Shown: positions 16,685-30,701 of the stretch, in pieces
How the letters are laid out: every line of letters starts with the position of its first letter
Position numbering within the stretch: the first letter of the stretch is position 1
DNA from: a virus
Length of the DNA stretch: 30,759 nt
Virus record (IMG/VR): IMGVR_UViG_3300025120_000312
Location: 1-30,759 of that record
Reading direction: 5' to 3' (one strand)
Program-made: the position numbers and the translations under genes
The notes under the pieces: generated by a model
Database searches by the model: none
What the model saw: the letters and a program-made list of their open reading frames with translations, nothing else
Told to the model about the DNA's origin: nothing

Positions 16685-16699
16685 CCAGAATTATCCTTT

Positions 16700-16723
16700 C
16701 ATCCAATGCTAGCTAGCCGTCAA
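16700..16723 (-). promoter_or_regulatory. Possible promoter for the tail assembly genes (CTAGCTAG-type)
   Basis: On the minus strand, TTGACG (16723-16718) is followed after one base by CTAGCTAG (16716-16709) and then, with the same 4-nt gap after CTAGCTA as in the early promoters, TGGATG (16705-16700). The -35 is better than in the early copies but the -10 is poor (TGGATG instead of TGGTAT). It lies between the terminator of the major tail protein unit and the G gene. It may be a weak or decayed copy of the module. Confidence 0.35.
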
Positions 16724-16726
16724 CCC

Positions 16727-16756
16727 AAAAAAAAGAGCTTGGTCTCACCCAAGCTC
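16727..16756 (-). terminator. Rho-independent terminator behind the major tail protein gene
   Basis: On the minus strand, GAGCTTGG and CCAAGCTC pair perfectly over 8 bp around a 6-nt loop (16756-16735), followed by eight T residues (16734-16727). It stands 33 nt after the major tail protein stop. It probably limits readthrough into the chaperone and tape measure genes, giving the high tube-to-tape-measure ratio a tail needs. A CTAGCTAG copy lies just upstream (16778-16785). Confidence 0.92.
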
Positions 16757-16788
16757 ACTTCACTCCCTTTGCTTACTCTAGCTAGCCC

Positions 16789-20408: not shown

Positions 20409-20603
20409 TTAGGCCATCGCGTATTTTCTCGCTGTTGTTGGTGATTTGACGCCGATGATCGCGGCAATTGCTTTGAATGTGTGGCCGGATTTTCTGAGTC
20501 GTTGGGCTCTCTGTTGCTTGGACTCTGTAAGCCAGAGGAGCACCATCACAGGAATGGTAAGTAGAGCCAAGACCGTGGCCACCAAGCAGGTGATTGAAGT
20601 CAT
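20409..20603 (-). CDS. Small membrane-anchored helix-turn-helix candidate (64 aa)
   Basis: The frame is open from 20672, but a promoter-like module occupies 20688-20660, so I place the start at the internal ATG (20603). From there residues ~3-26 are one hydrophobic segment (TSITCLVATVLALLTIPVMV), followed by ESKQQRAQRLRKSGHTFKAI and AAIIGVKSPTTARKYAMA. The second half looks like a helix-turn-helix: helix 1 QQRAQRLRKSG, helix 2 TFKAIAAIIG, turn VKS, recognition helix PTTARKYA. A membrane anchor joined to a DNA-binding motif in 64 residues is unusual. It lies in the head operon between the capsid and connector genes but seems to have its own promoter. Function unknown. Confidence 0.6.
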   Translation of the reverse strand: MTSITCLVATVLALLTIPVMVLLWLTESKQQRAQRLRKSGHTFKAIAAIIGVKSPTTARKYAMA

Positions 20604-20659
20604 TGGTTTGAAAGATTTTTTGGGGATCCCCGCAGCGGTGTGCGGCTGATCACTCTGCA

Positions 20660-20688
20660 ATCTTACCACCAATAGCTAAAAATGGCAA
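20660..20688 (-). promoter_or_regulatory. Minus-strand promoter related to the early module
   Basis: On the minus strand, TTGCCA (20688-20683), a 17-bp spacer containing TAGCTA and ending TGG, then TAAGAT (20665-20660). The -35, the spacer length, TAGCTA and the TGG before the -10 all agree with the early plus-strand modules. A weak AGCCGCAC sits exactly 21 nt after the first T of TGGTAA, where the early copies have AACCACCAC. It would serve the HTH candidate and the connector genes. Confidence 0.6.
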
Positions 20689-21133: not shown

Positions 21134-21162
21134 ATACGCTAGCTAGCTAATGGCTAGATGAA

Positions 21163-23181: not shown

Positions 23182-23210
23182 TGCAATGGCTAGCTAGTTT
23201 ATGGTATGGT
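23182..23210 (+). promoter_or_regulatory. Early promoter module, degenerate copy 1
   Basis: CTAGCTAG (23190-23197) lies in the spacer, and TGGTATGGT gives an extended -10 (TATGGT, 23205-23210). The -35 is poor (TGCAAT at 17 bp). The leader GCCGACGCCACTCC is a decayed form of the CAACCACCAC element found in the better copies. It drives the 79-codon gene at 23234. Confidence 0.55.
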
Positions 23211-23473: not shown

Positions 23474-23480
23474 TTAACCA

Positions 23481-23509
23481 TTGCTAGCTAGCTTTTTTTT
23501 CAGTATTAC
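23481..23509 (+). promoter_or_regulatory. Possible promoter with CTAGCTAG, variant copy
   Basis: TTGCTA (23481-23486), a 17-bp spacer starting within GCTAGC and containing eight T residues, then TATTAC (23504-23509). CTAGCTAG overlaps the -35 here (23484-23491) instead of lying mid-spacer, and TGGTAT and the ACCACC leader are absent. It lies directly before the winged-helix gene. Confidence 0.4.
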
Positions 23510-23515
23510 TCAGTC

Positions 23516-23857
23516 ATGGACCTTCTCTCCGAACTTCCACTTTTTAACCACCCAACGGCCCCTTATGTACGTGGTAGCGAAACCTCGCGGGAAGCAGCCG
23601 ATTCAATCAAGCCACACGCAAACACGCTTTGCCGCAAAATTTTGGATTCGATCGTTCTTTCGACTTCTGGCCTTACTTGTGATGAAGCCGAGCGTCACCT
23701 TCAACTCAGTCACCAAACATGCTCGGCCCGATTCCGAGACCTGAGTAGCTGTCAGCCCCCCTTGATCAGGAAGGCTTTTAATCCTGATGGCACCTTGCTT
23801 AAGCGTCCTACAAGGTCAGGACGGAAAGCCCAAGTTTTTATAGCAAGCCTTCAATAG
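23516..23857 (+). CDS. Winged-helix/HTH DNA-binding candidate (113 aa)
   Basis: GSETSREAADSIKPHANTLC is a motif I associate with small phage winged-helix proteins (TSxxAAxSI...TLR...), followed by RKILDSIVLSTSGLTCDEAE, the helix-turn-helix candidate RHLQLSHQTCSARFRDLSSC, and a wing-like basic end KAFNPDGTLLKRPTRSGRKA. Such proteins are common near phage early control regions. It could be the regulator that binds the repeated modules, but nothing in the sequence proves that. The next gene starts 2 nt after its stop. Confidence 0.65.
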   Translation: MDLLSELPLFNHPTAPYVRGSETSREAADSIKPHANTLCRKILDSIVLSTSGLTCDEAERHLQLSHQTCSARFRDLSSCQPPLIRKAFNPDGTLLKRPTRSGRKAQVFIASLQ

Positions 23858-24126: not shown

Positions 24127-24179
24127 TTGTCATTGCTAGCTAGCAGTGGTATGTTTATTTAGTCACCAACCACCACACG
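24127..24179 (+). promoter_or_regulatory. Early promoter-leader module, copy 2
   Basis: TTGTCA, 17-bp spacer with CTAGCTAG (24136-24143), TGG before TATGTT (24150-24155), AACCACCAC exactly 21 nt after the first T of TGGTAT, then ATG 3 nt later. Drives the ArdA-like operon. Confidence 0.8.
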
Positions 24180-24746
24180 ATGACAGCAATTCTTTCTAAG
24201 CCTCAAGCAATTCACAGCCGCGCCAGATTTGGCGATCACTCTGTCTTTGTTGAGTGTGTAGCCACCCAAAACAGTGGAGGGATGCACGGCTTCTGGGTAG
24301 ACCTTGAGCTGATCAATACGACCGATGACTGGGAAGCAGTAACCAAGTTTCTGTTTTCCACGTCTAATCAGCCAAACGCTGAGGAATACAAGATCACTGA
24401 TCACCAGATTCCACAGTTTGTTTCCCTTACTGATATTTGCACGATGATTTGGTTCGTCCAGATCAGCTCTTCGATTGACAGTAAACAACGTGACGTTTAT
24501 TGGGCTTATTGCACCCATACCAACAATGTCGCTAGCGCCAGTGAATTTGAGGCTGCTTTCCAAGGCGTCTACAACGATGAAGCTGATTTCTGCTACGAGC
24601 AAGCCAAAAATTCTGGCTCAAATGATGGACGATATTCGGACTACATAGATTGGGAACGTGTCTGGAAAGGTGAGTTCAATTGCAACGGTTATTGGGCTGA
24701 GGATGTTTTTGGTGGAGTTGCTATCTTCGTAGGAGTAGGCAAATGA
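24180..24746 (+). CDS. ArdA-like antirestriction protein (188 aa)
   Basis: ArdA proteins mimic DNA and block type I restriction-modification enzymes in the cytoplasm. The length is close to the family's usual ~165-190 residues. The N-terminus has GGMHGFWVDLELINTTDDWE (family pattern: YNxGxxxGxWxDL), then EYKITDHQIPQF, and the later EFEAAFQGVYNDEADFCYEQ-AKNSG and YIDWERVWKGEFNCNGYWAE resemble the F-x-x-AYxG...DYA...YIDxExxxRDL end of ArdA. The protein is rich in Asp and Glu, as a DNA mimic must be. It is the first gene of a five-gene coupled operon under a module promoter, suited to early expression before host restriction acts. Confidence 0.7.
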   Translation: MTAILSKPQAIHSRARFGDHSVFVECVATQNSGGMHGFWVDLELINTTDDWEAVTKFLFSTSNQPNAEEYKITDHQIPQFVSLTDICTMIWFVQISSSIDSKQRDVYWAYCTHTNNVASASEFEAAFQGVYNDEADFCYEQAKNSGSNDGRYSDYIDWERVWKGEFNCNGYWAEDVFGGVAIFVGVGK

Positions 24747-24874
24747 TCAAATTATTATTCATTGCCGTTTGCATCATCACTTGCTGCTTAGGGAACGAAT
24801 TTCCCAGTGCTACTTATTCCAATGTTGATGCCCCATATCGTCACCGAATTGACCTTGCGGAAAAACTCCGATGA
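24743..24874 (+). CDS. Tiny exported or membrane protein (43 aa)
   Basis: The ATG overlaps the ArdA-like stop (ATGA) and its own stop overlaps the next start (ATGA at 24871-24874). Residues 2-16 are hydrophobic (IKLLFIAVCIITCCLG), resembling a signal peptide with a possible lipobox-like IITC, followed by a short polar part (NEFPSATYSNVDAPYRHRID). It may be a small lipoprotein or membrane peptide; some phages use such products for superinfection exclusion, but no specific match is claimed. Confidence 0.6.
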   Translation: MIKLLFIAVCIITCCLGNEFPSATYSNVDAPYRHRIDLAEKLR

Positions 24875-25530
24875 GGGAACAGCTTCGGGATCTTGAGGGC
24901 CAGCTTGTCTATGTACTAGGCAGGCCCACCGGAGCTAAGACCAGCGGGGAGAACCGCGACGTTTGCATCAAGAATGCAACTGTTGTCCCTTGGGACGCTG
25001 ATGCCGCAATCGTTGACTCGGAAGGCATCAAGTGCGACCACCTATGGATTCGAGCCCATAGCCAGACTCGCACTTCGATGTATCAAAACTCGATTGTCGT
25101 TAGTCGCGTTGGTTTTTATACCCGAAAAGATGGATCGTTAGACATTGGCTGTCAAAGCATTGCGCGTCTTTACAACGCTGATATTTCGCTATCTCGTTTG
25201 AATAGCGCCATGCGTCAACGTATATCGCAGCAGGAAGCGCTGACTCGATCTGCTGGGATTTTGCTTGAAATAGATTACATTCTTAAATCTCACGGCAAAA
25301 TGTTTGAAGGTAACCCCGTATATGCCTATAGCGAATATCTGTCTATCACCGACATAAAAAAGCAAGTCGAGCAATTTCAAAAAACCGTCAACTTGCTTCA
25401 AGCTCGGATCTTTCTTGACAGCGTTCCTAAAGCTTCTAAACCAGAACCTGGATCTGCTCTGTTTTTGGACAGGAAACCTGTTTATTTAAGTCCATTTGCC
25501 TCATCTGTTGATCGCCTTCTTGAGGGTTAA
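24871..25530 (+). CDS. Unknown protein (219 aa) in the ArdA-like operon
   Basis: Starts in an ATGA overlap. The N-terminal half looks like a small beta barrel (GQLVYVLGRPTGAKTSGENR, VCIKNATVVPWDADAAIVDS, IKCDHLWIRAHSQTR). The second half is helical, with a long amphipathic helix (ISQQEALTRSAGILLEIDYI, DIKKQVEQFQKTVNLLQARI). No catalytic motif seen and no family recognised. Its tight coupling to the antirestriction and zinc-ribbon genes suggests an early host-interaction role. Confidence 0.65.
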   Translation: MREQLRDLEGQLVYVLGRPTGAKTSGENRDVCIKNATVVPWDADAAIVDSEGIKCDHLWIRAHSQTRTSMYQNSIVVSRVGFYTRKDGSLDIGCQSIARLYNADISLSRLNSAMRQRISQQEALTRSAGILLEIDYILKSHGKMFEGNPVYAYSEYLSITDIKKQVEQFQKTVNLLQARIFLDSVPKASKPEPGSALFLDRKPVYLSPFASSVDRLLEG

Positions 25531-25722
25531 ATGTCCAGACAGAATCCGACTAAGCCCATTACTGAGGTTGAATGGTTGCTAGTGCAAAACAACGCAAAAA
25601 CGCGAGCATTTGCAGCGATAGAAAGCGGCGATGATAAGAGACTTACAGCTCTTGAACGTGCTTACTATGTTAAGTTTCTAAATCTTGCTTCCCCACCCGG
25701 TCACCTTAAAACAAATGCGTAA
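25531..25722 (+). CDS. Small protein of unknown function (63 aa)
   Basis: The ATG follows the upstream TAA with no gap. Helical and basic: TEVEWLLVQNNAKTRAFAAI, ESGDDKRLTALERAYYVKFL. It overlaps the start of the zinc-ribbon gene. No family recognised. Confidence 0.55.
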   Translation: MSRQNPTKPITEVEWLLVQNNAKTRAFAAIESGDDKRLTALERAYYVKFLNLASPPGHLKTNA

Positions 25723-25960
25723 GCGTTCAGCACAAAGAGATTTTATTACCTGCCCTAAGTGCGGCAGCAATAACGTCCAATGTGTTTTGACAGTGCCAGT
25801 GTTGAATGACCCTGATTTCAACGTTGCGCGTCGGCGTCACTGCAAAAAATGCCGTCATCGTTGGTATTCAGCTCAGAAGCCAGAACAGCTTTGCCACGTT
25901 CAGTATTTAACGCATTTAGACGGGACGCAATCAGTTTCCGTAGTTCCTCTTACTAGCTAG
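25715..25960 (+). CDS. NrdR-like zinc-ribbon protein (81 aa)
   Basis: I use the ATG at 25715, which overlaps the upstream stop, instead of an earlier one at 25685. Four cysteines form a zinc ribbon: CPKC at residues 13-16 and CKKC at 43-46. The spacing and the surrounding ITCPKCGSNNVQ ... RRRHCKKCRHRWYS match the N-terminal zinc ribbon of NrdR, the repressor of ribonucleotide reductase genes, but the ATP-cone domain is absent, so it is not a full NrdR. Phages often carry such short ribbons, which may bind DNA or RNA polymerase. Its stop codon TAG (25958-25960) lies within the CTAGCTAG of the next promoter. Confidence 0.7.
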   Translation: MRKRSAQRDFITCPKCGSNNVQCVLTVPVLNDPDFNVARRRHCKKCRHRWYSAQKPEQLCHVQYLTHLDGTQSVSVVPLTS

Positions 25961-25996
25961 CTGTGGTAGTATCTAGGGAGATGCAACCACCACGTC
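25944..25996 (+). promoter_or_regulatory. Early promoter-leader module, copy 3
   Basis: Weak -35 (TTCCTC), 17-bp spacer with CTAGCTAG (25953-25960), TGG then TAGTAT (25967-25972), and AACCACCAC at the invariant 21-nt distance. ATG follows 3 nt later. It overlaps the end of the zinc-ribbon gene. Confidence 0.75.
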
Positions 25997-26308
25997 ATGC
26001 ACAGCCAACTTCGCCCCTCCCTAAACGCCACCCGGACGCCAGACGAGAAAGCAGCGTTTAAAGCTGCCAATCTGACCGCCGCTAGGCGAACCGTATTCAT
26101 TCCAAGAGTTCGCACTCCTGAGACCATGCCTGCGCCCAAGGGCAAAACATTCACCATTGCTTGGCAAACCAGCTTGGGTTGCTTTGGCTGGTCAAAGTTC
26201 GTTGGCTGTCGCGATATGGAAGAAGCCGTTGAGTGCTTCAACGCCTCCCGTCGCAATGGTGGGAACGTTCCCTTCGACGCCTGCATTGACGTGATCAAAC
26301 CTGCCTGA
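25997..26308 (+). CDS. Unknown protein (103 aa)
   Basis: First gene of a cassette, its ATG placed right after the conserved leader. The N-terminal third is basic (MHSQLRPSLNATRTPDEKAA, NLTAARRTVFIPRVRTPE) and the rest is a compact domain (GKTFTIAWQTSLGCFGWSKF, DMEEAVECFNASRRNGGNVP). No family recognised. The next gene starts 9 nt after its stop. Confidence 0.6.
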   Translation: MHSQLRPSLNATRTPDEKAAFKAANLTAARRTVFIPRVRTPETMPAPKGKTFTIAWQTSLGCFGWSKFVGCRDMEEAVECFNASRRNGGNVPFDACIDVIKPA

Positions 26309-26317
26309 GAAGAAAAG

Positions 26318-26608
26318 ATGAACGTCAACAAAATGGACAAGCTTCTGGCAATGACTGCCAGCAGTCAGGTAGAGGAAGCGCGAACAGCAGCTTTTCTGTT
26401 GTGCAAAATGCTTCGCGAGCAAGACGCTGATCTGAGCCGCCTTGTCTCGCAACCTTCAGCGCAGCGCGGAATGACAAGCTATGACGCTTATGTCAGATCA
26501 GTAAGAAAAGCCGCGCAAGAAGAACGCAATTCACAGCGCACAAAAAAAGGTGCGACTGATCCCGCCAGGGTCAAGAGTGAATGGACCGCATGGGCGAAAT
26601 CTTGGTAG
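26318..26608 (+). CDS. DUF2786-like small protein (96 aa)
   Basis: The N-terminal pattern KMDKLLAMTASSQVEEARTA-AFLLCKMLREQD recalls DUF2786 (a KIxxLLaLA...NEAxxAxxkAqxLM stretch), a small helical domain of unknown function found in phages and bacteria. The C-terminal half is basic and probably disordered, ending SEWTAWAKSW. An AGAAAAG sequence just before the ATG may serve as ribosome binding site, unlike the first genes of cassettes. The similarity is weak. Confidence 0.55.
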   Translation: MNVNKMDKLLAMTASSQVEEARTAAFLLCKMLREQDADLSRLVSQPSAQRGMTSYDAYVRSVRKAAQEERNSQRTKKGATDPARVKSEWTAWAKSW

Positions 26609-26611
26609 TTG

Positions 26612-26668
26612 TTGCCATTGCTAGCTAAAGGTGGTATTGTATGCAGGTAGTCAGCCACCACCCTCGAC
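26612..26668 (+). promoter_or_regulatory. Early promoter-leader module, copy 4
   Basis: TTGCCA, 17-bp spacer with CTAGCTA (26621-26627), TGG then TATTGT (26635-26640), AGGTAG, AGCCACCAC at 21 nt, and ATG 7 nt later. One of the best matches to the consensus. Confidence 0.85.
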
Positions 26669-26878
26669 ATGCGCCCAGAGTTCGCCACCCCCCAAGACTT
26701 CGCCACCTGGGAAGCCAGAGCCAAAGCAATGAGCGCCGCCGAACTGCTCTTCACCGTCAAGGACTGCCAAGAAGCCGAAGCCGCGATGCGTGGCCATAAC
26801 CCCGTCAAAGAGGGCTTCTATAGCGATCAGGCCAGCACTTTCGGTATGGAGCTGACACGCCGCCGCCGGAGCGCTTGA
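26669..26878 (+). CDS. Small conserved-type phage protein (69 aa)
   Basis: The pattern AMSAAELLFTVKDCQEAEAA-M, then NPVKEGFYSDQASTFGMELT-RRR, is one I recognise loosely from small phage proteins with a MsxxELxxxixDCxEAxxAM...GYYxDExxxxxxEL-R consensus. All helical. No function known. The next gene starts one base after its stop, so the two are probably co-translated. Confidence 0.65.
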   Translation: MRPEFATPQDFATWEARAKAMSAAELLFTVKDCQEAEAAMRGHNPVKEGFYSDQASTFGMELTRRRRSA

Positions 26879-26879
26879 G

Positions 26880-27182
26880 ATGACAGTCAGCACTTTCCCC
26901 AGTCGCTGGGGCCTTTACAACGTCACCCGCGCCGTTATCGCTTGCGACCCTGAGATCAGCGCCGAAGGAACGACCACCCAAAAAGTCCTGATCTTTGAAA
27001 CTACAGATCAAACCGAAACTGTCAGCATCTGCGGCAAGACTCTGTTTCTGATGCAAGACGGCCACACTTTTCAGTCGAGTTACGACGGCCAACGCCGCAC
27101 TTCGCTGAAGCCATGCGCTCGCAGGCAATATTCCAGAGCTTTGGCTGAGGGATACAAAGCTTCCATGGAGTTGATCTATTAA
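26880..27182 (+). CDS. Unknown protein (100 aa)
   Basis: Starts immediately after the preceding stop (TGAG-ATG). The N-terminal part is beta-rich (GLYNVTRAVIACDPEISAEG, KVLIFETTDQTETVSICGKT) and the C-terminus basic and helical (RRTSLKPCARRQYSRALAEG). No family recognised. The next module promoter follows 8 nt after its stop. Confidence 0.6.
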   Translation: MTVSTFPSRWGLYNVTRAVIACDPEISAEGTTTQKVLIFETTDQTETVSICGKTLFLMQDGHTFQSSYDGQRRTSLKPCARRQYSRALAEGYKASMELIY

Positions 27183-27190
27183 CCCTCTTG

Positions 27191-27243
27191 TTGCCATCTC
27201 TAGCTAGACATGGTATTATTTACAGGTAGCCAACCACCACACC
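27191..27243 (+). promoter_or_regulatory. Early promoter-leader module, copy 5
   Basis: TTGCCA, 17-bp spacer with CTAGCTAG (27200-27207), TGG then TATTAT (27214-27219, the best -10 of the set), AGGTAG, AACCACCAC at 21 nt, ATG 3 nt later. Confidence 0.88.
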
Positions 27244-27576
27244 ATGAACAACACCAACACCACCACGATTCAACAACTCACACGCGGTCAAGGCGCTCAA
27301 TCCCTTTTTGCCCTGACCGGCGCAAAGATCGGTTTCGACGACAGCCGGAACATGATCCGCTTGACCTTCTCCAAGCAGGTTGGCAAAGCCGGAGCCAAGT
27401 TCAAAACACTTGAGATTCAGTACAACTCCGCTACTGATCTTTACGACATTCACGCTTTCAAGCTGAACGGCAAGACCTATGCGATTGAGACCAAGACACA
27501 GCTAGACGGCATTTATTGCGATCAGCTTCAGGAGATCTGCCAGAACATCACCGGCCTGTACTTCACACTCCGCTGA
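27244..27576 (+). CDS. Small conserved-type phage protein (110 aa)
   Basis: Begins with a Thr/Asn-rich stretch (NNTNTTTIQQLTRGQGAQSL), then alternating strands (AKIGFDDSRNMIRLTFSKQV, FKTLEIQYNSATDLYDIHAF, LNGKTYAIETKTQLDGIYCD) and a final helix QLQEICQNITGLYFTL. I recognise this LTFxF...IxLNxxDxYDVxF...xDxLxEIFxxxTGL plan from small phage proteins of unknown function. A TTCG hairpin follows the stop. Confidence 0.65.
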   Translation: MNNTNTTTIQQLTRGQGAQSLFALTGAKIGFDDSRNMIRLTFSKQVGKAGAKFKTLEIQYNSATDLYDIHAFKLNGKTYAIETKTQLDGIYCDQLQEICQNITGLYFTLR

Positions 27577-27582
27577 TCTAAC

Positions 27583-27596
27583 GCCCCTTCGGGGGC
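27583..27596 (+). terminator. TTCG hairpin, possible weak terminator
   Basis: GCCCC-TTCG-GGGGC-type stem-loop (5-bp GC stem, stable TTCG loop) just after the stop of the 110-codon gene. There is no following T-tract, so it may act as an mRNA-stabilising end or partial terminator; two more genes follow without a promoter module. Confidence 0.5.
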
Positions 27597-27616
27597 ATCA
27601 ACCCCACAGAAAAACA

Positions 27617-27796
27617 ATGGCTATTTCATCGCCTGGTCAAGCCTTCACGAACGTTCGCTTAGGCATTGACGACCTTTCCCTGCTGATCGATGCAGTGGAA
27701 GGAACAACTGACCACGACACAACAGCTCCAGAAATTGAGCACCGCCGTCTTCTTCTCAACCGACTGGTTGACAAGTTCTGCCTTCTCGACCATTGA
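27617..27796 (+). CDS. Small protein of unknown function (59 aa)
   Basis: ATG at 27617 following AAAAACA; the product reads MAISSPGQAFTNVRLGIDDL, SLLIDAVEGTTDHDTTAPEI and EHRRLLLNRLVDKFCLLDH. It is acidic with two helices, the second leucine-rich. No family recognised. It lies between the 110- and 123-codon genes on the same strand and fills an otherwise empty 250-nt gap, which supports coding. Confidence 0.5.
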   Translation: MAISSPGQAFTNVRLGIDDLSLLIDAVEGTTDHDTTAPEIEHRRLLLNRLVDKFCLLDH

Positions 27797-27826
27797 TCAC
27801 CTGAAAATCTTTTACCTTCCACTCCA

Positions 27827-28198
27827 ATGTCACTCTCTATTGATACTGAAAAACTTGTAGCTGTTTACGCTTTTGGCGAATGGCACAAGATCCAGCCTGG
27901 CTCTGTTGATATTGATGAATTTGAGCTGATGCACTACATGGATTCGCCAAAAGTAAGAGCGGAGTGTGCGGAAAACAAAGACACCAACAGAGGAGACACT
28001 ATTGAGTTCTTTGCAATGGGTGCCCTTTACCGCGCATCTGAACCTGAGCCTGATTACTCATGGATGAATGAAGGCAGTGGAGAACGAATGCAAACCATGA
28101 GGAACCCATCAGGTGCTGATGGATTTTGTTTTATCACCCCACAAGGAACCCGAAAAGCGTTTTCGCTGATGGAGTGCAAAGGTTTTGAGTATCTGTAA
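27827..28198 (+). CDS. Unknown acidic protein (123 aa)
   Basis: Mixed alpha-beta: IDTEKLVAVYAFGEWHKIQP, SVDIDEFELMHYMDSPKVRA, GDTIEFFAMGALYRASEPEP, GFCFITPQGTRKAFSLMECK. Acidic in its first half. No family recognised. Last gene of the cassette driven from 27191; no hairpin terminator seen before the next module. Confidence 0.6.
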   Translation: MSLSIDTEKLVAVYAFGEWHKIQPGSVDIDEFELMHYMDSPKVRAECAENKDTNRGDTIEFFAMGALYRASEPEPDYSWMNEGSGERMQTMRNPSGADGFCFITPQGTRKAFSLMECKGFEYL

Positions 28199-28214
28199 AA
28201 ATAAACCCGACTTG

Positions 28215-28270
28215 CTGCCATCTCTAGCTAAGTGTGGTACTATCAACAGGTACGCAACCACCACAGCGCA
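28215..28270 (+). promoter_or_regulatory. Early promoter-leader module, copy 6
   Basis: CTGCCA, 17-bp spacer with CTAGCTA (28224-28230), TGG then TACTAT (28238-28243), AGGTAC, AACCACCAC at 21 nt, ATG 6 nt later. Confidence 0.83.
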
Positions 28271-28513
28271 ATGTCTAACCAAACCGCAGCTTTCACACCC
28301 GGCAACGTCTACATGATGCGCTGGGCTGGTGACGCCGACGCTCGCACCGCCACCCGCGTGGTCAAGCGCACCGCCAAATTCGTGACCCTATGGGTCGAGG
28401 GTTTCGGCGTCAAACGTTGCGCTATTCGCGCCAACGACCAAGGCGAGTTCGCGCTTCCCTTGGGTACTGCGTACCTGGCCCCAGTTGTCCGCGCCTGCCG
28501 TCTGGCGGCCTGA
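28271..28513 (+). CDS. Small basic SH3-like candidate protein (80 aa)
   Basis: A longer frame opens at 28232, inside the promoter, so the ATG at 28271 after the leader is preferred. The sequence FTPGNVYMMRWAGDADARTA, RVVKRTAKFVTLWVEGFGVK-RCAIR and a C-terminal LAPVVRACRLAA match a small phage and plasmid protein type I remember by its RTAKFVTL core, probably a small beta barrel. Basic overall. Function unknown. Confidence 0.65.
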   Translation: MSNQTAAFTPGNVYMMRWAGDADARTATRVVKRTAKFVTLWVEGFGVKRCAIRANDQGEFALPLGTAYLAPVVRACRLAA

Positions 28514-28550
28514 TCGTCTTTCGCATGTGATTTCGCCACCCACCAAGCAA

Positions 28551-28718
28551 ATGAACTACTGGACCCCCGAACGCTGCAAAACCATTCCCACTTTGGTGCT
28601 TATGGACAACTCCCTTCAATTTTCTGCTCAAGCAATCGTTTCCAAAAATCCAAGCATCGTCAGACGCAACACGGAAATAGTCGAAATGATCCAAGCAGAA
28701 CTTCGCGCTCGCGCCTGA
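28551..28718 (+). CDS. Small protein of unknown function (55 aa)
   Basis: I use the ATG at 28551, since the preceding gene ends at 28513. The product MNYWTPERCKTIPTLVLMDN, SLQFSAQAIVSKNPSIVRRN, TEIVEMIQAELRARA is mostly helical. The same reading frame stays open after the TGA at 28716-28718 for 68 more codons, so this may be the first part of a longer, interrupted gene. No family recognised. Confidence 0.45.
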   Translation: MNYWTPERCKTIPTLVLMDNSLQFSAQAIVSKNPSIVRRNTEIVEMIQAELRARA

Positions 28719-28925
28719 TCACTCGAAAGCCTGAGCCTGCTTCAGCGCTCAGTCCTTGAGGACTGCTTCAGCGGTTCCACTGTCTGCGGACAGGTTGCTC
28801 ACCTATTTGATAACCCTGACCCGAAAAAACGCCTGGTGTACGCCAACGCTAAACGCTCAATCCATACCATCGCCCGAAAGTTTAGGGAGGTAGGTCTGCA
28901 CGTTTCTTTCATCCCTGACTTCTGA
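28719..28925 (+). other. In-frame open stretch behind a TGA, no clear start (possible gene remnant or readthrough part)
   Basis: The frame continues from the TGA at 28716-28718 to a TGA at 28923-28925, with plausible protein sequence in the second half (QVAHLFDNPDPKKRLVYANA, KRSIHTIARKFREVGLHVSF). There is no ATG; in-frame CTG codons occur at 28731 and 28737 and a GTG at 28836. It could be the C-terminal part of the preceding gene split by a stop codon, a gene with a rare start, or chance. Two hairpins at its start are listed separately. Confidence 0.35.
28750..28793 (+). other. Pair of small stable hairpins (possible structured RNA)
   Basis: CAGTCC-TTGA-GGACTG (28750-28765) and CTGTC-TGCG-GACAG (28780-28793) are perfect stems of 6 and 5 bp; the second has a UNCG-type loop closed by C-G. 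A direct repeat CTGCTTCAGCG flanks the first hairpin. No T-tract follows. Confidence 0.45.
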
Positions 28926-28932
28926 TCAGCCT

Positions 28933-28950
28933 GGCCCTTCGGGGCCTTTA
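28933..28950 (+). terminator. Terminator, TTCG loop
   Basis: GGCCC-TTCG-GGGCC followed by TTTAT, eight bases behind the stop at 28925 and two bases before the next promoter module. It ends the cassette started at 28215. Confidence 0.75.
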
Positions 28951-28952
28951 TG

Positions 28953-29008
28953 TTGCCTTCTCTAGCTAGTAGTGGTATTGTTTGGAGGTAGTCAACCACC
29001 ACCACCGC
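28953..29008 (+). promoter_or_regulatory. Early promoter-leader module, copy 7
   Basis: TTGCCT, 17-bp spacer with CTAGCTAG (28962-28969), TGG then TATTGT (28976-28981), AGGTAG, AACCACCAC at 21 nt, ATG 6 nt later. Confidence 0.87.
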
Positions 29009-29179
29009 ATGACCGCCTATCAGTTCGCCGCTCTCGCCGCCATCAAGGGCCACGGTGCTCAGCCCACGACCGAACTCGTTGAGCGCGTCCTTTGGACACT
29101 CGATGTGATGGTCAAAGCGGGATACAAGCTCGAAGCTGCCGCCCACGCAGCAGCAGAAACTCACCTTCTTGCTTACTGA
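29009..29179 (+). CDS. Small helical protein of unknown function (56 aa)
   Basis: ATG at 29009, after the leader; an earlier ATG at 28982 lies in the leader itself and is rejected. The product MTAYQFAALAAIKGHGAQPT, TELVERVLWTLDVMVKAGYK, LEAAAHAAAETHLLAY is Ala-rich and helical. The next gene starts two bases after the stop in a TGATCATG arrangement. No family recognised. Confidence 0.6.
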   Translation: MTAYQFAALAAIKGHGAQPTTELVERVLWTLDVMVKAGYKLEAAAHAAAETHLLAY

Positions 29180-29181
29180 TC

Positions 29182-30063
29182 ATGGCCTTCCAAGACATTG
29201 CCCACGCCATAACCGCCTTCACAACTCCCGCCGATCTTGCCGACGCCCTAACTGATCGGATCCGCAACAGCCTTCTCAACCGCGCCTTCTACGCGGCTAA
29301 AGAAGCTCAGGAAGCGATCGGGGGGTTGAGAAGAAAGACACACCGCCGCATCACCAACAACCCTCTGCTTGTCATCAGGACCAGCGACCACAGCAACTAC
29401 TTCAACGGGACCATCTGGGCTGTGGACATCAACTTCCGCACCATCGACCAAATCCTTACCGCCACCGTCAAGAACGCCACTGACCTTCTGGAAGATCGCG
29501 TTACTCGGAACATCGGTGAGGGCGAGACCCTTACTGAGATTCGCCTTGGGCTGGGCAAGGAGAACCTGATCGAGGGAATCGTCACTGGCGTGAACGCCAA
29601 AGGAGAGGGCTTCACCATCGACGTCCACATGCTCTGGAACTACCGCTACGGGGAGAACAGCGCCAACGGTGTACTGACCATTTACCCACAATTCAGAGGC
29701 ACCCGCCAAGGAGCCCCGATGGACGGGAAAGCTCAGCAATCCACCGCGACAGCAGCCAAGGAATCCGCCAAGGCAGAGCGCCTGGCCGCCAAAGCTGCAC
29801 GACGCGCCGAGCAACGGGCAAAGTTTGCCAAGGCCCCCGAAAGGCTGGCTCGCCAGTGCGAAAAAAGCCTGAAGGTCTGGACCGGTCGCTCCGGCAGACC
29901 TGATCACCCCACCGCGCCAGAGTGGGCATTTATACGTGACGCTGCACGATCCCTGACCACTGATCAGCTGGACGAGATGTTTAGCGACGGCTTACGAACC
30001 AGTGGGGACATTGAGTCGCGCCTTGAGCGGGAATACCTGACACTGAAAAAGGCAGTCGCCTGA
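29182..30063 (+). CDS. Unknown protein, largest of the early block (293 aa)
   Basis: ATG at 29182 chosen because it follows the preceding stop by two bases; a frame-compatible ATG at 29092 would overlap that gene deeply. Residues ~1-60 are helical (DIAHAITAFTTPADLADALT), ~60-175 mixed strands (THRRITNNPLLVIRTSDHSN, FNGTIWAVDINFRTIDQILT, EGFTIDVHMLWNYRYGENSA), ~195-235 a very Ala/Lys/Arg-rich helix (AKAERLAAKAARRAEQRAKF), and ~240-293 a helical end (APEWAFIRDAARSLTTDQLD). The basic helix could bind nucleic acid. No catalytic motif seen. A terminator follows directly. Confidence 0.7.
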   Translation: MAFQDIAHAITAFTTPADLADALTDRIRNSLLNRAFYAAKEAQEAIGGLRRKTHRRITNNPLLVIRTSDHSNYFNGTIWAVDINFRTIDQILTATVKNATDLLEDRVTRNIGEGETLTEIRLGLGKENLIEGIVTGVNAKGEGFTIDVHMLWNYRYGENSANGVLTIYPQFRGTRQGAPMDGKAQQSTATAAKESAKAERLAAKAARRAEQRAKFAKAPERLARQCEKSLKVWTGRSGRPDHPTAPEWAFIRDAARSLTTDQLDEMFSDGLRTSGDIESRLEREYLTLKKAVA

Positions 30064-30073
30064 AAACAGACCC

Positions 30074-30092
30074 GCCCCTTCGAGGGGCTTTT
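30074..30092 (+). terminator. Terminator, GCCCC-TTCGA-GGGGC
   Basis: Perfect 5-bp GC stem with a TTCGA loop followed by TTTT, 10 nt after the stop of the 293-codon gene. Confidence 0.82.
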
Positions 30093-30097
30093 AATGT

Positions 30098-30149
30098 CTA
30101 CCGTTGCTAGCTAAACGTGGTATAGTATGCAGGACCGCAACCACCACCC
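30098..30149 (+). promoter_or_regulatory. Early promoter-leader module, copy 8
   Basis: CTACCG, 17-bp spacer with CTAGCTA (30107-30113), TGG then TATAGT (30121-30126), AGG, AACCACCAC at 21 nt, ATG 2 nt later. Confidence 0.83.
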
Positions 30150-30419
30150 ATGACCACTTTCATCAACGACATTCAAATTGACAAATCAACCGAAGCCAAA
30201 GGTTGGTACGACCTCACCACCGCTAAAGGCAAACACATTCAGGTTGTTTTCTGGTACGGCAAAGTTCTGGTAAAGGCCATCAACGCTTCCGCTAAATGTG
30301 CCGCTTACCCTGGCGCTTCTATGGGCAGATCTTTTGCAGACCTCCCCGAAGCTGTTGAGGCATTCAAAAACAAGGACACCAAGCAAGCTCTTCGCGCTCT
30401 CCTTTCACACCTGATCTGA
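30150..30419 (+). CDS. Small protein of unknown function (89 aa)
   Basis: Single-gene cassette. An N-terminal beta region (MTTFINDIQIDKSTEAKGWY, LTTAKGKHIQVVFWYGKVLV) is followed by a helical end (DLPEAVEAFKNKDTKQALRA). Basic. No family recognised. Flanked by a module promoter and a terminator, so it can be expressed on its own. Confidence 0.65.
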   Translation: MTTFINDIQIDKSTEAKGWYDLTTAKGKHIQVVFWYGKVLVKAINASAKCAAYPGASMGRSFADLPEAVEAFKNKDTKQALRALLSHLI

Positions 30420-30452: not shown

Positions 30453-30701
30453 ATGCCTCTTACTAGCCCCCCTTCGCCTGCTCATTACACACAAGACGAA
30501 AACATAGAGTGCATTGACGCAATTCAAGCTTCGCTATCACCTATTGAGTTTCGAGGTTTTCTTCGGGGCAACGTCAAGAAATATCTATGGCGCTACCCCA
30601 TGAAAGAAGGACTTAAAGATCTTCTCAAAGCTCATTGGTATCTCAACCGTTTGATTGACGAAATTCAAACAGCTGAAAACATTCAAGACAAGCTGCACTG
30701 A
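30453..30701 (+). CDS. DUF3310 family protein (82 aa)
   Basis: The family pattern is clear: AHYTQDENIECIDAIQASLS (HY-x-x-x-x-IExIDxI), FRGFLRGNVKKYLWRYPMKE (FLxGNxxKYLxRYxxK) and GLKDLLKAHWYLNRLIDEI (DLxKAxWYLxxLI). DUF3310 proteins are short helical phage proteins, sometimes labelled SaV-like or as nucleotide-kinase-like, with no firmly established role for this form. It starts 8 nt after the terminator and has no module of its own, so its promoter is unclear. The next gene begins two bases after the stop. Confidence 0.85.
   Translation: MPLTSPPSPAHYTQDENIECIDAIQASLSPIEFRGFLRGNVKKYLWRYPMKEGLKDLLKAHWYLNRLIDEIQTAENIQDKLH

Follow-up and report, generated by a model that had tools for sequence, protein, structure and literature searches.

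Palindromic elements repeated at cassette promoters in an uncultivated lineage of siphophages

Many promoter operators across the genome of phage P1, each of them an asymmetric 17-bp site, answer to a single repressor, C1. The present study concerns a similar arrangement, a palindromic promoter element repeated ahead of small genes in the IMG/VR virus record IMGVR_UViG_3300025120_000312. The stretch analysed (positions 1 to 30,759 of that record, 30,759 nucleotides; hereafter the window) is a 30.8-kb siphophage contig, and we know of no sequence relation between the P1 operators and its element. By analogy, the closest systems in logic appear to be the SPBRE of Bacillus phage SPbeta and the stoperators of Cluster A mycobacteriophages, neither of which is identical with it. 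SPBRE is a 15-bp motif bound by the master repressor MrpR, a protein of tyrosine-recombinase fold, and the motif was known from sequence decades before its protein (PMC10516654). Like the element described here, it is short and repeated at phage promoters and in intergenic regions, and as in SPbeta one phage repressor would serve all copies. SPbeta is integrated by a serine recombinase, and large serine integrases are present in two of the contigs examined below (G001 and G003). The two systems, compared by description, differ in that SPBRE is another motif, belongs to a Bacillus phage and is read by the recombinase-fold MrpR.

The stoperators of Cluster A mycobacteriophages such as L5 are asymmetric 13-bp sites, oriented along the direction of transcription and recognised by a monomer (PMC6550527, PMC9283540). 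They too are numerous and dispersed, some at promoters and others elsewhere, as may also be the case here, and in both cases drift of the motif between relatives parallels the divergence of the phages. The element here is palindromic, however, and in this respect it does not belong with such asymmetric sites. What it shares with dispersed repressor operators is that many copies of one motif stand at the promoters of one phage, above chance. No description of it was found in the open-access literature, most subscription journals lying outside the coverage of that search.

The original prediction, made from the window alone, took the element for a phage-wide regulon. The element is indeed shared, but not within one phage only: pattern scans of IMG/VR and a terminase search revealed five other contigs of the same siphophage lineage that carry it (G001, G002, G003, G004 and L126). 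The window is a fragment, all carrier contigs are uncultivated and probably incomplete, and the gene starts given below are our own calls.

Seven promoters under one palindrome

All seven modules of the original prediction were found, each with exactly 17 bp between a -35-like and a -10 hexamer, with TGG ahead of the -10 box and with CCACCAC 2-7 nt ahead of the ATG. A further component, described as AGGTAG or a variant, is less regular, the exact hexamer being present in only three of the seven. With the 17-bp spacer and the TGG before the -10 box, the geometry is that of a host-type sigma-70 promoter with an extended -10, as had been proposed; a strict sigma-70 consensus scan was passed by three of the seven and by a further copy at 20688. 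All seven lie on the plus strand. The first (24127..24155, TTGTCA-17-TATGTT) is followed by a leader (24156-24179) and an ArdA-like gene (24180-24746), the second (25944..25972, TTCCTC-17-TAGTAT) by a leader to a gene of unknown function (25997-26308) and the third (26612..26640, TTGCCA-17-TATTGT) by a leader to gene 26669-26878. The fourth (27191..27219, TTGCCA-17-TATTAT), which matches the symmetric template introduced below at 14/14 positions, precedes gene 27244-27576 (phrog_9437). The fifth (28215..28243, CTGCCA-17-TACTAT) and the sixth (28953..28981, TTGCCT-17-TATTGT) stand before gene starts at 28271 and 29009, and the seventh (30098..30126, CTACCG-17-TATAGT) before gene 30150-30419. 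Since terminator-like hairpins lie directly before the sixth (28933-28946) and the seventh (30074-30088), some cassettes are units of terminator, operator-promoter, leader and gene. The terminator scan as a whole was near the shuffle background (15 found, mean 12.2), and only these two hairpins are relied on here.

The pattern CTAGCTARNNNTGGTANNNT matched the plus strand of the window seven times and the minus strand not at all, and its reversed control gave no match. CTAGCTAR occurs 22 times on both strands of the window, whereas dinucleotide shuffles lead one to expect 1.0 and reach 5 at most. Coding sequence makes up 93.7% of the window by our gene list, yet 12 of 13 CTAGCTAR cores are intergenic.

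The original prediction placed a palindromic regulator site, CTAGCTAG, between the two boxes. The palindromic nature of this site stands, but the palindrome is longer and includes parts of both boxes. The element is one palindrome of ~22-26 bp, T(A/G)CCA-N3-CTAGCTAG-N3-TGG(T/C)A, superimposed on the promoter; its outer arms are formed by the '-35' (TRCCA; TTGCCA) and by the first bases of the extended -10 (TGGTA; TGGTAT), and CTAGCTAG is the dyad. The weight matrix proposed as a check, derived from the seven copies and then run iteratively on five phage contigs, also matched most copies, at the same position, on their reverse strand. The unit is therefore symmetric. Information is highest at the TAGCTA of the dyad (1.35-1.9 bits/position) and, roughly one helical turn outwards, at CCA/TGG. 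Sites agreeing with a symmetric template at 13 or more of 14 positions number five in the window, one in G001, eight in G002, five in G003 and three in G004; L126 has none at this level and two at 12/14 or above. None was found in 706 kb of terminase relatives or in seven isolate cyanophages (for S-CBS2, 50 of 72 kb scanned), and shuffled genomes had on average at most 0.03.

The 17-bp rule holds in all seven window copies but is broken in G003, where the -10 box moves and the palindrome stays. The palindrome is intact at four G003 sites whose -10 box lies downstream of its usual position, by 3 bp in three of them (TATGAT/TATACT) and by 2 bp in the fourth (TATACT). A fifth shifted entry (49644, TAAAAA) was discarded as the non-promoter strand of another site. 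Of the 27 sites with a good -10 box, 22 show it in the canonical position. The palindrome can be separated from the promoter, and the shift of the -10 box over an intact palindrome favours the site of a bound protein over a sigma-factor signal. MerR-type activators act on over-long spacers of 19-20 bp. Such an activator, suggested earlier as one possible ligand, is unlikely here because the spacer is already 17 bp in all seven copies.

Distribution among phages and hosts

DNA comparison of the region matched no named phage. By protein, the closest named relatives are MED4-117/MED4-184 for a cassette gene and S-CBS1, S-CBS3 and S-LBS1 for a tail gene, and KBS-S-2A tops the relative list of the G004 terminase; kinship with these phages and with S-CBS2 is distant, through tail, terminase or accessory genes, and none of them has a site at 13/14 or above. 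Because the nearest named protein relatives are picocyanobacterial siphophages, the host of the window phage is probably a picocyanobacterium. The hosts of the group as a whole are probably picocyanobacteria of oceans and lakes.

Searches of the whole records allowing 3 mismatches gave 8 sites in G001 (control, 1), 22 in G002 (control, 1), 30 in G003 (control, 0) and 9 in G004 (control, 0). All-against-all protein comparison showed that neck and tail genes are common to the window, G001 and G003, the neck and major tail proteins being ~96% identical between the window and G001, and that G002, G003 and G004 share terminase, nuclease and nearby genes; the carriers thus form one lineage. L126 was obtained from the terminase search (55% identity), and its element-carrying cassettes occupy the opposite strand between the terminase and portal genes. 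In 76 other terminase relatives (34-50% identity, 706 kb) there was no copy at the matrix threshold used. As far as sampled, the sequences place the element within a single clade. Two other contigs, L054/L055 (G006/G007), were rejected as carriers because their matches were at or near background. Other IMG/VR matches to the palindrome alone, a single site per contig with identical stretches recurring in several contigs, were attributed to chance or to coding sequence.

Across 300 Cyanobiaceae genomes, 3 matches to the exact promoter pattern were found, compared with 5 to the reversed control. This is the chance level and rules out a promoter type of the host. A general promoter class of cyanophage isolates is likewise ruled out by the seven isolates without a site at 13/14 or above. 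The pattern of promoter plus CCACCAC gave 19 single matches in 84,980 bacterial genomes; these were scattered over unrelated taxa and are about what chance would give by our estimate.

The genes behind the seven copies had been said to differ completely. Within the window they do, but in the relatives the element is retained at orthologous cassettes: it stands just upstream of both the window gene at 30150 and its G003 homologue (37% identity), and of both the window gene at 26669 and its G002 homologue (49% identity). A G003 gene resembling the window gene at 29009, a pair matched by eye, also has it upstream. The proposal of exchangeable cassettes is supported. Cassettes of small genes lie inside the structural region on the opposite strand both in the window (24127-30419) and in L126 (2400-4100, terminase to portal). 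The cassette region is an accessory-gene hotspot, which in the window includes the ArdA-like gene (Pfam PF07275, E 9e-10).

Large serine integrases or recombinases are encoded by G001 and G003; the window fragment has none. Their presence suggests that the lineage is probably temperate. Lysogeny in picocyanobacteria has been described as rare, no inducible prophages having been detected among isolates of Synechococcus or Prochlorococcus (PMC6157547). The signature would identify an uncultivated lineage of probable temperate picocyanobacterial phages, and lysogeny in these hosts would become experimentally addressable. It also appears to mark co-regulated accessory genes, likely with anti-defence functions, and it points to two repressor candidates. 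As a search tool, the element may single out the small unknown genes behind it as candidates for host takeover or counter-defence.

Proposed repression, its alternatives and the candidate regulators

The dyad covers the promoter from -35 to -10, the classical place of a repressor. As the simplest reading, we consider it rather probable that the modules are dispersed operators of a phage-encoded dimeric repressor acting across the carrying genes of the lineage. Each module would be a strong extended -10 promoter occupied by a dimeric DNA-binding protein of the phage, which would read the palindrome (arms TRCCA/TGGYA, core CTAGCTAG) spanning -35 to -10. Its binding would exclude RNA polymerase and keep all carrying genes off together: the small accessory cassettes (the ArdA-like gene included), a nuclease gene, and the genes for the phage sigma factor and for both candidate regulators. 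At the cores found at late-gene junctions, the same protein would probably silence late transcription or act as a roadblock to it. In the absence of the regulator, as on infection, or after its inactivation, as on induction, the promoters would fire together. It is part of this proposal that the protein represses and does not activate, that the timing is early and that the system has a role in lysogeny; the transcripts are predicted to have short leaders that lack a Shine-Dalgarno sequence and end in ACCACCAC-AUG.

It is less likely that the modules are promoters of a phage RpoD-like sigma factor, of a late or middle class, with the arms as its specific -35 and -10 signals. Such a factor is encoded by G001 and G003 (phrog_351, E 6e-75; all sigma-70 regions in Pfam), and a copy of the element lies directly upstream of its own gene in both (35624 in G001; 44981, minus, in G003). 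A sigma factor reads an asymmetric signal, however, whereas the element is symmetric and the -10 box moves relative to it in G003. Moreover, most of the isolated siphophages named above encode RpoD-like sigma factors, and S-CBS1, S-CBS3, S-LBS1, S-CBS2 and KBS-S-2A, whose factors are related to these, have no site at 13/14 or above.

We regard as improbable that the palindrome is the site of a phage early activator that switches the cassettes on together. Dimeric activators bind palindromes too, and the logic of the regulon would be the same. Most activators bind upstream of the -35 box, but this site covers -35 to -10 of a promoter that already has the optimal 17-bp spacing and an extended -10. 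It is very unlikely that the modules are mainly recombination joints for cassette swapping, with regulation secondary. Modules and terminator-like hairpins do frame small exchangeable genes, and in different phages orthologous genes stand behind diverged copies; yet the pattern is short, exact in spacing at promoter positions and kept at orthologous cassettes, and bare cores also lie between conserved late genes that are not swapped. We give hardly any credence to an ordinary host-type promoter with no dedicated regulator, alike through strong promoter consensus and shared descent, since most of the information lies in the core CTAGCTAG and the arms, which are not sigma-70 signals, although the hexamers fit sigma-70, and since isolate cyanophages have no high-scoring sites and host genomes the pattern at chance level only.

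If the modules are operators, two proteins are the best candidates for their repressor, the first being slightly preferred. The first, of 111-114 amino acids (aa), is encoded by G002, G003 and G004 and has an N-terminal three-helix helix-turn-helix (HTH; block predicted local distance difference test score, pLDDT, >80, residues 11-50) and a possible ribbon-helix-helix (RHH) C-terminus (RHH_1, sub-threshold E 0.0055). Variant elements are present at the promoter of its gene in all three contigs. The second, of 241-245 aa, has an N-terminal pattern that we read as XRE-like and is encoded by G001, G002 and G003. Its gene is divergent from a small (p94) gene, with the element between them in G001 and G003, where the start codon of the small gene lies ~6 nt after the -10 box; a leaderless mRNA is therefore predicted. 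The product of this leaderless gene (90-94 aa), considered as a Cro-like protein, had no HTH match and was rejected in that role. In G003 the genes of the two candidates are at 39290-39628 and 51739-52470. IMG/VR searches with either candidate recovered only element-carrying contigs.

Lambda-type dimers usually tolerate variation at the centre of their sites. On structural reasoning, the conservation of the dyad would suit an RHH dimer better than a lambda-type one. A tentative and more specific possibility is that the 111-114 aa protein represents a new class of small HTH plus RHH master repressor, in which the RHH would read the CTAGCTAG dyad and the HTHs the TGG arms one turn out, and which would silence the lineage from dispersed sites at early promoters and late junctions. 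If true, it would provide a genetic handle on cyanobacterial lysogeny, where isolates gave almost no prophages.

Several observations weigh against the repressor reading as a whole. Covariation between the arms within a site is absent beyond one position, so that the symmetry is a property of the consensus; some of the symmetry counts used a symmetric template, and the way in which sites were selected biases the arm-pairing table. The preference of the cores for intergenic positions is partly forced by the two TAG triplets that they contain. The window, being a fragment, holds neither candidate gene. The structure models of the candidates are too weak to single out the regulator (mean pLDDT 55 and 66), their family matches are sub-threshold or absent, and a fold search found no significant match. 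No element-carrying prophage was found in the sampled hosts: a terminase relative occurs in two of 400 Cyanobiaceae genomes, and these two have no site at fewer than two mismatches.

The XRE-like family (~245 aa) is also chromosomal, a profile search having found it in 203 of 400 Cyanobiaceae genomes; its presence in about half of the sampled genomes points to a picocyanobacterial host. The phage members have no Pfam match, and neither host nor phage members have a meaningful NCBIfam match. By eye, no version of the element was seen upstream of the host homologues. Several of the host loci (L109-L123; for example L120 1399-2133, minus) lie beside a fatty-acid desaturase gene.

Leaders, further copies and gene layout

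The original prediction treated promoter and CCACCAC as one unit. The leader proved separable, since CCACCAC also precedes promoterless genes inside operons in G003. On the plus strand of that contig it lies at most 21 nt from the start of an open reading frame (ORF) of at least 40 aa 25 times, and several tracts (24692, 29251, 40742 and 43153) have no operator in the 60 nt upstream. In the window, the A/C-rich leader with CCACCAC lies just before the ATG at 24164..24179 (plus strand), with equivalents at 25987, 26655, 27234, 28258, 28996 and 30141. With the transcription start set 7 nt after the -10 box, the predicted window leaders are 17-22 nt long, have weak or no structure and contain no Shine-Dalgarno sequence; they end in ACCACCAC-N2-7-AUG, with one copy reading GCCACCAC. 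The tract recurs before start codons in place of a Shine-Dalgarno sequence in G003 (L010, L086) and in the window, and most plausibly serves these phages as a leader for translation initiation. A 5' hairpin stands ahead of the C/A-rich tract in G002, L126 and some G003 and G004 copies. In G002 (L084/L009) and L126 it is stable, follows the operator-promoter directly (e.g. GGGAGGCGAGAGGCCTCCC) and is succeeded by CTTACC or CAACC before the start codon.

Copies beyond the seven went unlisted in the original prediction. A further operator-promoter lies on the minus strand at 20660..20688 (TTGCCA-17-TAAGAT), overlapping the 5' end of ORF 20409-20672, whose product is HTH-like and has a homologue in G003. 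Two degenerate copies are on the plus strand. One, at 23182..23210, has an extra base between its core (23190-23197) and TGG, a -10 box TATGGT and an ORF start at ~23234; the other, at 23475..23500 (ACCATTGCTAGCTAGC...), has lost its right arm and precedes gene 23516-23857, which has a weak HTH match.

Bare cores, to which no strand is assigned, occur among the late genes. Two CTAGCTAG cores flank a terminator-like hairpin in the interval 16685-16788, between the major tail protein gene and the next tail gene: one at 16709..16716, where the surroundings match the template at 12/14 positions, and one on the other side of the hairpin at 16778..16785. The pair is conserved at the same junction in G001 (1875 and 1806, respectively), and G003 has a single core there (14373). 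Downstream of the major head protein gene, a bare CTAGCTAGCTAA (21139..21150) stands next to a terminator-like hairpin on the minus strand (21133-21118). These cores at late-gene junctions recall stoperators.

The minus strand of the window encodes the major head protein, scaffold, neck, tail tube, tape measure and tail fibre, and the small plus-strand genes start at ~23.2 kb. Behind the last cassette, an ORF at 30453-30701 encodes a stand-alone protein of 82 aa that matches phage 'nucleotide kinase' families in their C-terminal domain (phrog_236, E 2e-25).

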